From the NCBI GenBank assembly GCA_003280605.1, contig QCEM01000007.1, forward strand, positions 1-64,000: a stretch of 64,000 nt of DNA. The letters run 5' to 3'. This document shows, piece by piece, positions 60,611 to 64,000 of the stretch. Numbering within the stretch: position 1 is the stretch's first letter; every line of letters begins with the position of its first letter. A program made the position numbers and the translations under genes. The notes beneath the pieces were generated by a model. The model saw only the letters and a list, made by a program, of their open reading frames with translations, had not been told where the DNA came from and searched no databases. Origin of the DNA: SAR116 cluster bacterium AG-355-O21. GTDB lineage: Bacteria > Pseudomonadota > Alphaproteobacteria > Thalassobaculales > Thalassobaculaceae.

Positions 60611-61924
60611 TTATTCAGCCGCTGCCGCTTGCGCCGAACTGGCGTCCAAAGCTTGCAATAGATCACCTTCAATGTCGTCGATATGCTCAATGCCGATTGA
60701 TAAGCGGACATATTTTTCCGACACCCCGCTTGCCAGCCGATCTTCTGCCGACAACTGGCTGTGGGTGGTTGTTGCAGGATGGATCGCCAGTGAGCGGGCG
60801 TCACCAATGTTGGCCACGTGATAGAACAGCTTCAAGGCATCGATAAATTGTGCCCCGCTGTGACCATCCTTCAGCTCAAAACCAACCAAGCCTCCGAAAC
60901 CGCCTTGCAGATAGGTCTCGGCGCGGCGCTTAAACTCCCCGTCTTGAACCCCGGGATAAATGACACGTTCAACCGCCGGATGACGCTGAAGAACCTCAAC
61001 AACCTTGGCCGCATTCTGGGCATGAGTTCGGATTCGCAGCGGCAAGGTTTCCAATCCCTGAATGATCTGAAAAGCATTGAACGGCGACAACGCCGAGCCA
61101 AGGTCTCGCAGCAATGTGGTCCGTGCTTTGATGATATAGGCAACCGGCCCAATCGGCTTAACGGCTTCGGTCCAAACAGCACCATGATAGGAAGCATCTG
61201 GCGTGTTCAAGGCAGGTTGCCGGGTTGGAAAATCTTCCCATGGAAAATTACCGCCATCAACGATCAAGCCACCGATTGAGGTGCCATGACCGCCGATATA
61301 TTTGGTGGTTGAATAAACCACCACGGCGGCACCGTGATCAAATGGCCGGCAAAGGATTGGCGCTGCGGTGTTATCGACGATCAAGGGAATCCCAAACGAG
61401 CGGCCAATGTCGGCAACTTCTTTGATCGGAAATACCTGTAGTTTCGGGTTTGGTAAGGTTTCGGCGTAATAGGCTCTGGTTCGCGCGTCGGTCGCACGGG
61501 CGAAAGCTTCCGGATCGGCCGGATCAACAAAGCGAACCGCAATGCCTTGATCCTTCAACGTATTGGCAAACAAATTCCATGTTCCCCCATAGAGGTCCGT
61601 GGAACTGACAATGTTATCGCCGGCCCGCGCAATATTTTGAATGGCCAATGCCGTTGCAGCCTGCCCCGAGGACACCGCCAAAGCAGCGGCACCGCCGTCG
61701 ATTGCCGCAACGCGCTTTTCCAGCACATCACAGGTCGGATTCATGATGCGGGTGTAAATATTGCCAAACTGCTTCAGGCCAAACAGGTCTGCGGCATGGG
61801 CACTATCTTCAAATTGGTAACTGGTGGTTTGATAAATCGGGACTGCAACAGCCCCTGTTGTCGGGTCAGCACGATGGCCGGCATGGAGGGCCAAGGTTTC
61901 TGGGTTGGTGCTATCTGTGGTCAT
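60611..61924 (-). CDS. metY: O-acetylhomoserine aminocarboxypropyltransferase/sulfhydrylase
   Basis: 437 residues, Cys/Met metabolism PLP family. Opening LALHAGHRADPTTGAVAVPI, ALAVSSGQAATALAI, DNTAAPILCRPFDHGA, and the PLP Lys in VVYSTTKYIGGHGTSIGG. It makes homocysteine (or methionine) from O-acyl-homoserine and sulfide (or methanethiol). The ATG at 61924 follows AGAGGAG. The leader of 188 bases contains a SAM-II-type aptamer, an intrinsic terminator and a second aptamer-like fold ending at the ribosome-binding site, so it is probably repressed by S-adenosylmethionine. This is the best regulated gene in the window. The helicase is divergent. Confidence 0.95.
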   Translation of the reverse strand: MTTDSTNPETLALHAGHRADPTTGAVAVPIYQTTSYQFEDSAHAADLFGLKQFGNIYTRIMNPTCDVLEKRVAAIDGGAAALAVSSGQAATALAIQNIARAGDNIVSSTDLYGGTWNLFANTLKDQGIAVRFVDPADPEAFARATDARTRAYYAETLPNPKLQVFPIKEVADIGRSFGIPLIVDNTAAPILCRPFDHGAAVVVYSTTKYIGGHGTSIGGLIVDGGNFPWEDFPTRQPALNTPDASYHGAVWTEAVKPIGPVAYIIKARTTLLRDLGSALSPFNAFQIIQGLETLPLRIRTHAQNAAKVVEVLQRHPAVERVIYPGVQDGEFKRRAETYLQGGFGGLVGFELKDGHSGAQFIDALKLFYHVANIGDARSLAIHPATTTHSQLSAEDRLASGVSEKYVRLSIGIEHIDDIEGDLLQALDASSAQAAAAE

Positions 61925-61930
61925 GGTCGT

Positions 61931-62003
61931 CTCCTCTTTAGCGGAACTCGCTTCGAGTTCGGGTTGAAAACAACGGCTAAAGATGGAAAAACCGAAACGC
62001 CTG
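61931..62003 (-). promoter_or_regulatory. Second SAM aptamer-like element (SAM-V-like) overlapping the metY ribosome-binding site
   Basis: Read on the minus strand after the terminator: CGTTTCG (61999-61993) pairs with CGAAGCG (61955-61949), a 7-bp stem with one G-U. The tail is CCGCTAAAGAGGAG, which repeats the tail of the upstream SAM-II element (GCTAAAGAGG) and contains the metY Shine-Dalgarno. Alternative folds exist: GAACTCG-AAG-CGAGTTC (61960-61944), and TCTTTAGC (61983-61976) pairing with GCTAAAGA (61942-61935). This arrangement, a SAM-II aptamer with terminator followed by a SAM-V aptamer at the ribosome-binding site, is known from marine alphaproteobacteria. Assignment to SAM-V is by analogy; I could not run a covariance search. 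Confidence 0.5.
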
Positions 62004-62017
62004 CTGATTGCGGGCAT

Positions 62018-62051
62018 AAAAAAGCCCCATCACGTTTCGACGTTTGGGGCT
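62018..62051 (-). terminator. Intrinsic terminator (riboswitch expression platform) upstream of metY
   Basis: On the minus strand, AGCCCC (62051-62046) pairs with GGGGCT (62028-62023), with an inner ACGT/ACGT pairing and a following run of six T (62023-62018). The GGGG at 62060-62057 just upstream can pair with the same CCCC (62049-62046), forming a competing antiterminator. This gives SAM-dependent termination a clear mechanism. Confidence 0.8.
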
Positions 62052-62056
62052 ACGAA

Positions 62057-62111
62057 CCCCTCTTTAGCCGTATTTATAAAGCGCCCGCAAGCTGGATCTC
62101 AAATCGGCGCT
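62057..62111 (-). promoter_or_regulatory. SAM-II-type riboswitch aptamer
   Basis: On the minus strand, P1 is AGCGCC (62111-62106) with GGCGCT (62085-62080). The loop begins GATTTGAGATCC (62105-62094), and the tail is TTATAAATA, CGGCTAAAGA, GGGG. Arrangement and sequence fit SAM-II: P1, a GAUUU-rich loop, an AUAAAU linker and the GCUAAA-GG tail. SAM-II elements normally precede met genes in alphaproteobacteria, and metY follows. The aptamer is followed by a terminator, so it should stop transcription when SAM is bound. The pseudoknot was not modelled. Confidence 0.75.
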
Positions 62112-62118
62112 CTTCGGT

Positions 62119-62147
62119 TAAATGAACCAAACGGCGAAAAATGTCAA
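62119..62147 (-). promoter_or_regulatory. Likely metY promoter
   Basis: TTGACA (minus strand, 62147-62142) is a perfect -35; after 17 bases, CATTTA (62124-62119) is a weak -10. A start near 62112 would begin the transcript just at the riboswitch P1. GGTT-AAATG-AACC (62116-62128) overlaps the -10 as a short inverted repeat. Confidence 0.45.
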
Positions 62148-62206: not shown

Positions 62207-64000
62207 ATGACTACGTTGGTTTCACAATCCCGCATTACCGCTGTTCTCGGCCCAACGAACACAGGTAAGACCTATCTTGCGATAGAACGGATGCTTGGGC
62301 ATAGCACCGGCATGATCGGTTTCCCGCTGCGTTTGTTGGCGCGCGAAAACTATGACCGTGTTGTCGCCGCCAAAGGTCGAGGCGTGGTCGCCCTGATCAC
62401 AGGTGAAGAAAAAATCATTCCGCCGCAGGCGCGCTATTTTATTTGTACCGTTGAAGCGATGCCGCTGGACCGCAGTGTCGAGTTTTTGGCAATTGATGAA
62501 ATTCAACTGGCCGCCGACCCCGAGCGCGGTCATGTCTTCACAGACCGCTTGTTGCATGCCCGCGGCAGCGCCGAGACAATGTTCCTCGGGGCGGCGACAA
62601 TCCGAGGTATCTTGCAGCAATTGGTGCCCACTGCGGCGGTCATAACCCGGCCGCGGTTTTCCAGTCTACGATATGATGGGGCGACCAAAATCACGCGCTT
62701 GCCGCGGCGCAGCGCCGTGGTCGCTTTTTCCGTGCAAGATGTCTATGTGCTGGCTGAAATGGTGCGCCGTCAACGTGGCGGCGCTGCTGTTGTCATGGGT
62801 GCCCTCAGCCCGCGTGCCCGAAACGCCCAGATTGCGATGTATCAAGCCGGCGAAGTTGACTACCTGATTGCAACCGACGCAATCGGTATGGGCTTGAATA
62901 TGGATGTGGATCATGTCGCTTTTGCCGCCGATCGAAAATTCGACGGCCGGTTTCCGCGTAAACTCCTGGCCCCTGAACTGGCCCAGATTGCCGGTCGCGC
63001 CGGCCGCCATATGAATGATGGAACTTTTGGTGTCACCGCAGAGCTAAATGGCCTGGATGAAGATCTGGTGATGGCCATTGAGGCCCATGAATTTGACCCG
63101 ATTAAGGGCGTATATTGGCGGAATCGACAGCTTAGCTTCAATTCCATCCGTGACCTGCAATACAGCCTCGATGACCGGCCCAATGAGGCTGGGCTGATTC
63201 GCAAACGCGAGGCCGAAGATCAACGTGCACTTGACAGCTTGTCGCGGATTCCTGAGGTGCTCGAATTAGCGCAATCATCGGCACGGATTCGGCTGCTGTG
63301 GGATGTCTGTCAGATCCCTGACTTCCATAAAAACATGACCGACAGCCATCCGCGCTTGCTTGCCCAGGTGTTCCAATATCTCGCCTCCGGCAGCGAACGA
63401 CTTCCCAGCCAATGGGTAAATGATCAGATGAGCGGCTTGGACCGAACCGATGGCGGCATCGATACTTTGGTAAATCGAATTTCCCAGGTGCGCATTTGGA
63501 CCTATATTAGTCATCGTAACGAATGGGTTGATGATCCAGCGGAACTGCAACAACGAGCACGGACCATCGAGGATCGCCTCTCCGACGCTTTGCATCAACG
63601 TTTAACCGAACGTTTTGTAGATCGCCGGGCAGCGGTGCTTAGCCAAAAATTGACAGAGCGCGAGGATTTGGTGGCGGCGATAAAAAATGACGGCGAAGTA
63701 ATCGTCGAGGGACATCGGGTTGGCGAAATGCGCGGCCTGTTGTTTTTCCCCGATGATGGTGAAAATGACCGCGATAAAATTGTGCTGGCGGCAGCGCGGC
63801 AGGTTTTACCGCAAGAGCTCGATCGGCGGGTGGCGACCTTGGTCGACGCACCTGACGGTGTCATTAGCTTTGATGAAATCGATGGTTTGGTCTGGCAAAA
63901 AGCCCGGATTGCACGTCTGATCGCAGGCCATGATCGGCTTAACCCTCGGCTTGAGCTGATCTGCTCGGAATTGCTTGAAGCTGACCGACGAGAGCGCCTT
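62207..64000 (+). CDS. SUV3-type RNA helicase, truncated by window end
   Basis: The frame is open for 598 codons to the last base of the window, so the C-terminus is missing. Motif I is GPTNTGKT (residues 15-22), motif II DEIQ (97-100), GAATIRG in motif III, a helicase C domain with ATDAIGMGLNMDVDHVAFAA and motif VI QIAGRAGRH. This is the Suv3/Ski2-like group, found as large (900-1,100-residue) proteins in alphaproteobacteria; mitochondrial SUV3 acts in RNA degradation with PNPase. The region after about residue 350 should contain the SUV3 C domain. The ATG at 62207 follows TGAGGT. Divergent from metY, with the riboswitch leader between. Confidence 0.88.
   Translation, partial: MTTLVSQSRITAVLGPTNTGKTYLAIERMLGHSTGMIGFPLRLLARENYDRVVAAKGRGVVALITGEEKIIPPQARYFICTVEAMPLDRSVEFLAIDEIQLAADPERGHVFTDRLLHARGSAETMFLGAATIRGILQQLVPTAAVITRPRFSSLRYDGATKITRLPRRSAVVAFSVQDVYVLAEMVRRQRGGAAVVMGALSPRARNAQIAMYQAGEVDYLIATDAIGMGLNMDVDHVAFAADRKFDGRFPRKLLAPELAQIAGRAGRHMNDGTFGVTAELNGLDEDLVMAIEAHEFDPIKGVYWRNRQLSFNSIRDLQYSLDDRPNEAGLIRKREAEDQRALDSLSRIPEVLELAQSSARIRLLWDVCQIPDFHKNMTDSHPRLLAQVFQYLASGSERLPSQWVNDQMSGLDRTDGGIDTLVNRISQVRIWTYISHRNEWVDDPAELQQRARTIEDRLSDALHQRLTERFVDRRAAVLSQKLTEREDLVAAIKNDGEVIVEGHRVGEMRGLLFFPDDGENDRDKIVLAAARQVLPQELDRRVATLVDAPDGVISFDEIDGLVWQKARIARLIAGHDRLNPRLELICSELLEADRRERL

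Follow-up and report, generated by a model that had tools for sequence, protein, structure and literature searches.

One SAM-II aptamer and two proposed control steps in series in the metY leader of a SAR116 cluster bacterium

The control region of metY, a methionine-synthesis gene, lies on the minus strand upstream of the ATG in the 64,000-nucleotide stretch of DNA analysed here (the window, from a SAR116 cluster bacterium). Judged by its sequence, this leader carries one SAM-II sensor, and the window copy is expected to bind SAM. Probably, though by no means certainly, the single aptamer serves two expression platforms in series, the first acting on termination and the second on ribosome access by strand exchange. 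The proposal builds on the aptamer match, the elements around it, two complementarities shared by one strand, the near-equal predicted energies of the competing pairings and the conservation of an 'anti-tail' block in related leaders. Three segments are central (Table 1): the aptamer tail T, a copy of it over the Shine-Dalgarno (S), and strand A. In the first step, SAM would hold T in the P2 pseudoknot, GGGG would be unavailable to the CCCC arm and the terminator would form; without SAM, GGGG:CCCC would act as antiterminator. In transcripts that read through, A would have two mutually exclusive partners, T and S. Without SAM, A would pair with free T (11 bp) and leave S open (ON), and with SAM, T would be occupied and A:S would close a three-way-junction hairpin over the ribosome site (OFF). 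Both levels would be OFF with SAM. Since the Shine-Dalgarno region is a sequence copy of the tail, one strand can choose between them.

Table 1. Positions of metY and of the leader features in the window
Feature	Positions	Strand	Basis
metY (P0001), O-acetylhomoserine aminocarboxypropyltransferase, regulated gene	60611..61924	minus	TIGR01326
S: GCUAAAGAGGAG, copy of aptamer tail over Shine-Dalgarno	61931..61942	minus	sequence; same in sister
Hairpin H2, GAACUCG-AAG-CGAGUUC (sister CGGGCC/GGCCCG)	61944..61960	minus	folding
Hairpin H1, GUUG-UUUU-CAAC (sister UGCG-UCAUU-CGCA)	61963..61974	minus	folding
A: UCUUUAGCCGU	61973..61983	minus	complementary to T, and via UCUUUAGC to S
Anti-SD strand GGUUUUUCCAUCUUUAGC, outer stem	61976..61993	minus	MFE/centroid fold, z -5.4
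Intrinsic terminator AGCCCC..ACGU-CGAA-ACGU..GGGGCU + U6	62018..62051	minus	sequence, folding
Antiterminator GGGG-UUCGUAG-CCCC	62046..62060	minus	sequence
T: aptamer L3 + 3' strand of P2 (AUAAAUACGGCUAAAGAGGGG)	62057..62077	minus	
P1 of SAM-II	AGCGCC 62111-62106 / GGCGCU 62085-62080	minus	coordinates from sequence
L1 of SAM-II, GAUUUGAGAUCCAGCUUGC	62105-62087	minus	coordinates from sequence
SAM-II (SAM_alpha, RF00521) aptamer match	62046..62120	minus	Rfam covariance model
-35-like TTGACA, metY promoter	62142..62147	minus	sequence

The metY leader, its aptamer and its terminator

The product of the regulated gene reached 593.9 bits with the TIGR01326 profile (cut-off 495.1), which supports metY as the target named by the first-pass annotation, and the position of its start (ATG 61924-61922, minus) is backed by orthologues. 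Another ATG stands straight after the U-run of the terminator, in frame with metY (62017-61925, minus); starting there gives an ORF of 468 aa, with 31 extra codons across the second element. The frame matching this upstream ATG ends in the sister genome at a UAA within GCUAAAG. The promoter suggested for the leader held up in part: the TTGACA hexamer is present at 62147-62142, but the -10 is weak (CATTTA/TTTAAC 62124-62117) and a consensus promoter scan returned no sigma-70 pair at the metY leader. Most relatives likewise have a TTGAC motif upstream of the aptamer in the family leaders. A divergent helicase-like gene (MTTLVSQSRITAVLGPTNTGKTYLAIERMLGHSTG..., 62207-64000, plus) starts 60 bases from the -35 box of metY, and this neighbour is also present in the sister genome.

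The aptamer is matched over the full length of the Rfam model RF00521 (1-79/79; 62120-62046, minus) with 35.1 bits and an E value of 5.7e-6, about one bit below the gathering score of 36 bits; the copy of the same genus in G001 scores 42.3 bits and lies above it. L1 (GAUUUG..GCUUGC), the tail GCUAAAGAGG and the P1 hairpin of the SAM-II core are all present in the Rfam alignment, and the aptamer precedes a methionine/SAM gene in Alphaproteobacteria, as the gene is metY and the relatives are Alphaproteobacteria. Thus, the SAM-II-like aptamer of the first-pass annotation is borne out. A second RF00521 match was not found in the leader of the window, which is therefore not a SAM-II doublet. A SAM-II aptamer is no ground for the marine origin that had been read from the leader; a relative (L031) does have a true SAM-V, but it is not found here.

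T may pair with L1, with the terminator arm or with strand A. Its GGGG (62060-62057) is able to pair with the CCCC of the terminator arm (62049-62046), and the proposed terminator with its competing antiterminator (AGCCCC...GGGGCU-T6, 62051-62018) was found as described. The sister carries GAGGG/CCCUC at the place of the antiterminator, with equal roles and other letters. A simple terminator consensus scan missed the terminator of the window because its loop is longer than 8 nt. The 3' arm of the terminator can also pair past the U-run (GGGC-UUUUUUAU-GCCC, 62029-62011, minus), where the sister carries GAGGG..CCCUC; possibly, this hairpin forms after read-through.

The element over the ribosome site

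Bases 62019-61916 form a fold on which MFE and centroid agree (z -5.4; none of 200 shuffles as good). Its outer stem, GGUUUUUCC-A-UCUUUAGC with GCUAAAGAGGAGACGACC, encloses two hairpins and covers the Shine-Dalgarno, where UCUUUAGC pairs with GCUAAAGA. The best fold of the sister has the same stem and hairpins (z -3.4), with other standard pairs in place of most of those in H2 and of three out of four in H1. Compared with leaders whose upstream sequence had been shuffled, the Shine-Dalgarno was in many cases not more deeply occluded (percentile 0.18 in the window and 0.68 in the sister, median 0.18); this signal is not strong and was not used as evidence. A second control element overlapping the ribosome-binding site is upheld by this closing stem, and so is the repeat of the aptamer tail (GCTAAAGAGGAG, 61942-61931) over the metY Shine-Dalgarno.

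The first-pass annotation had taken this element for SAM-V-like and the leader for a tandem SAM-II/SAM-V. In that case, a divergent SAM-V would bind SAM and close the Shine-Dalgarno in a P2 pseudoknot. The tail GCUAAAGAGG repeated over the Shine-Dalgarno speaks for it, as do metY being a SAM-V target in Pelagibacter (PMC2704228, PMC6061858) and the true SAM-V of family member L031. However, three Rfam searches with SAM_V (RF01826), covering 1.1 kb (1101 bases), a 116-base stretch and the whole genome, gave no match at E<=10, and SAM-V membership was rejected on these grounds. Of the covariance-model check on both elements, only the SAM-II half returned a match, just under its cut-off. The same Rfam library detects the SAM-V of L031 with 42.3 bits; therefore, the SAM_V search works. 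That SAM-V (1501-1570, minus; G024:C3:118425-118494) is above the Rfam cut-off and lies directly before a short gene (MTKPKATVLEIEKINQEPQDQYYAKIKFKDPDTG...) that does not resemble a methionine gene.

The details of the element also disagree with a SAM-V. The L1 core that makes the SAM-II/V pocket (GAUUUG...CUUGC in SAM-II, AUUUGAACC...CUUGUGC in the SAM-V of L031) is not present in the second element. In SAM-V, a U (U47) pairs with the adenine of SAM and has no RNA partner in P2 (PMC6061858); in the window, the strand opposite GCUAAAG is CUUUAGC, the duplex is gapless, and by comparison of the letters with that paper a paired A fills the ligand gap opposite the U equivalent to U47. Moreover, SAM-V is an H-type pseudoknot in which the 3' strand of P1 directly follows the 5' strand of P2 and is itself followed by the P3 hairpin (PMC6061858). 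This strand order is not found in the window, where H1 intervenes and the 3' strand of the claimed P1 sits inside H2. Bases 61999-61993 and 61955-61949 do allow the claimed 7-bp stem CGTTTCG/CGAAGCG, but a stronger 7-bp hairpin takes in its 3' strand and the sister does not keep its sequence. P1 was rejected as a conserved stem; H2, with which it clashes, persists in the sister by compensatory changes, and a GUGG/CCAC match (4-5 bp) near the same place there was judged too short. By its sequence, the second element is a hairpin that would block the ribosome site, not a SAM-V, and we regard a tandem SAM-II/SAM-V leader as extremely improbable.

Alternatively, the element might be the relic of a second SAM-II aptamer of which only the tail overlapping the Shine-Dalgarno is left, either working by strand exchange or without function. 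There is a precedent in the metY leader of Hwanghaeella (L092), with two SAM-II aptamers at this place (31.9 and 26.2 bits), and doublets occur elsewhere in the family, but the window has no trace of L1 or P1 in the element. We consider this very unlikely; as the history of the element, such an origin would be compatible with the strand-exchange reading. In L092, the aptamers lie at 1221-1298 and 1375-1449 with a terminator between them. Genomes of the same family hold many SAM-II doublets, spaced by about 115-145 nt (L024, L030 and L046-L054); the L024 doublet stands before another sulfhydrylase-like gene.

Predicted pairing of strand A and its conservation in metY leaders

Strand A at 61983-61973 (UCUUUAGCCGU) is an exact 11-bp complement of the SAM-II tail ACGGCUAAAGA at 62071-62061. 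The tail:A duplex of the window (-21.8 kcal/mol) was equalled by one of 200 shuffles; that of the sister is longer, and none of 200 shuffles was as good as its -31.4. When tails were swapped, A of the window, of the sister and of L073 each paired best with its own among 13 tails. Two T:A pairs of the window, A62071-U61973 and G62069-C61975, are replaced by G-C and A-U in the sister. Both compensatory changes fall on positions of A outside the A:S pairing; therefore, the likeness of Shine-Dalgarno and tail alone is an insufficient explanation.

The two states of A are nearly equal in predicted energy, about 2 kcal/mol apart (T:A -53.9 vs A:S -56.4 kcal/mol in the window; -67.1 vs -65.0 kcal/mol in the sister). 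In folding of growing transcripts, A pairs with T until S is made and then moves to S (window) or remains divided (sister). At the full-length equilibrium of the window, A:S is favoured even with T free and access to the Shine-Dalgarno is little changed; opening by T would therefore need folding during transcription. In the models, exchange is thus favoured by folding of growing transcripts, not by the full-length equilibrium.

This persistence bears on a simpler explanation, in which a passive hairpin closes the Shine-Dalgarno and lowers metY translation, SAM acts by the terminator alone, and complementarity to the tail merely follows from the resemblance of Shine-Dalgarno and tail. Indeed, in the window this hairpin is the fold of highest stability and survives in the model when T is free; moreover, as S resembles T, a strand against S would pair with T anyway. 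The related leaders argue otherwise. A homologous 10-nt 'anti-tail' block is found in 25 metY leaders of the clade, and when the second element was aligned with MAFFT leaving T out, the block GC-n-GC-R-U is the most conserved part outside the Shine-Dalgarno region. It pairs with L3 of the tail, mostly beyond the stretch that S copies. In this register, 78.7% of cells pair with T, compared with 22-51% when slid by 1-3 columns. The covariation score of the anti-tail register, counted on related, hand-cut 10-mers with an artificial spacer and with relatedness not removed, is 0.183 and was reached by 8 of 500 shuffles; pairs with two-sided change, taken alone, were not beyond shuffles (61/500). 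Compensatory changes at tail-only positions (window vs sister, and g9) and the lineages that retain aptamer and element without a T-run terminator also count against a passive hairpin, which we consider unlikely.

The complementarity is unevenly distributed. A 10-bp complement to the L3 stretch CAAAUGCAGC is present in g12 (where GCUGCAUUUG pairs with it), g5, g6 and two of the three leaders of g3, and no more than 3 of 400 shuffles equalled it. A conserved A.G mismatch lies in the middle of the complement in g10, g7 and most of g8, where the L3 signal is not significant; the complement of g7 turns significant with a longer tail. T:A complementarity was not significant in g10, three of four g8 leaders, L059 and L091. 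An anti-tail complement is mostly absent from the controls, namely SAM-II leaders from other families, doublet leaders within the same family, and metY leaders of outgroups. The exact pattern of tail, anti-tail and tail copy, searched family-wide, matched only in the two genomes of the genus (window and sister, which make up the genus comparison), because tail and copy differ in letters in other genera. In the MetY tree, window and sister group together (97/90), and the open branch that holds them also contains g3, g5, g6, g12 and a Kordiimonadales sequence. A scan of genome contigs recovered mostly remote metY genes, the majority lacking a recognisable SAM-II.

Leaders of g8, g9 and g10 have no T-run terminator and keep both the aptamer and the element proximal to the Shine-Dalgarno; therefore, the aptamer presumably acts post-transcriptionally there. 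This suggests that the second step is able to carry control alone in g8, g9 and g10. The aptamer core is unchanged in these terminator-less leaders. SAM-II metY leaders without terminator are L067, L069, L073-L078 and L083, several of them in small AT-rich genomes.

It is also conceivable that the 3' strand of the aptamer is supplied by S in place of T: L1 (..UCCAGCUUGC) would pair with GCUAAAGAGGAG, and SAM would clamp the Shine-Dalgarno at a distance. Within the genus, S retains GCUAAAGAGG, the tail consensus of SAM-II, and the letters of L1 and S go together, CUCC in L1 accompanying GCUAAA..GGAG in S (g3, g5, g6, g12, sister) and both lacking in g7, g8, g9 and g10. However, one event in a single clade may account for this correlation, and L1 of the window has AUCC, with just three pairs to GGAG. 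Such a replacement is quite improbable. In a bolder form of the strand-exchange reading, which we hold to be improbable, A would choose between the tail and the copy over the Shine-Dalgarno, the copy perhaps completing the SAM pocket with L1; one aptamer would act on transcription and then on a ribosome site more than 100 nt away, and the wiring would be conserved across a family-level metY clade.

Meaning and relation to known systems

If strand exchange proves true, a Shine-Dalgarno that mimics the tail would offer a compact route, without a second aptamer, to control that works at two levels and saves energy, as has been proposed for SAM-II/SAM-V tandems. The leader would also be a test bed for a downstream strand invading a pseudoknot aptamer, a question raised by Pelagibacter SAM-II/SAM-V (PMC11508383). 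As a caution, finding the aptamer tail repeated over the Shine-Dalgarno is not enough to infer a second aptamer.

SAM-II, SAM-II/SAM-V tandems and SAM-II doublets with mixed platforms are already known, the doublets numbering 44 (PMC9481103). A SAM-II leader whose Shine-Dalgarno copies the aptamer tail, with a complement shared by both, was not found described in the open-access literature. Among single-aptamer leaders, metZ of S. meliloti (PMC9373788) is alike in aptamer, target pathway, a terminator after the aptamer and the OFF response to SAM; to this the window adds an element past the terminator that closes the Shine-Dalgarno and a strand complementary to the aptamer tail. The metA leader of S. 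meliloti (PMC9373788) likewise combines one SAM-II aptamer with a terminator and Shine-Dalgarno control, but there the Shine-Dalgarno lies in P2 of the aptamer itself and the downstream terminator is not predicted to respond to SAM, whereas in the window the Shine-Dalgarno is a distant copy that would be opened or closed through strand A.

The SAM-II/SAM-V tandems of Pelagibacter (PMC9481103, PMC11508383) share the order of SAM-II with terminator first and ribosome-binding-site control second, and metY as a SAM-V target, but the window is without their second aptamer. In the SAM-II doublets (PMC9481103; L092 here), a terminator follows the first aptamer and the second controls the ribosome-binding site; the window keeps one aptamer. 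The SAM-II domain of the bhmT SAM-II/SAM-V RNA is blocked by downstream sequence (PMC11508383), a related idea that in the accessible part of that source is not tied to strand exchange with a mimic of the Shine-Dalgarno. Finally, the c-di-GMP riboswitch Bc1, in what is available of its description (PMC11218506), also joins a single aptamer to dual regulation through a long expression platform with terminators, with another aptamer and another wiring than the window.
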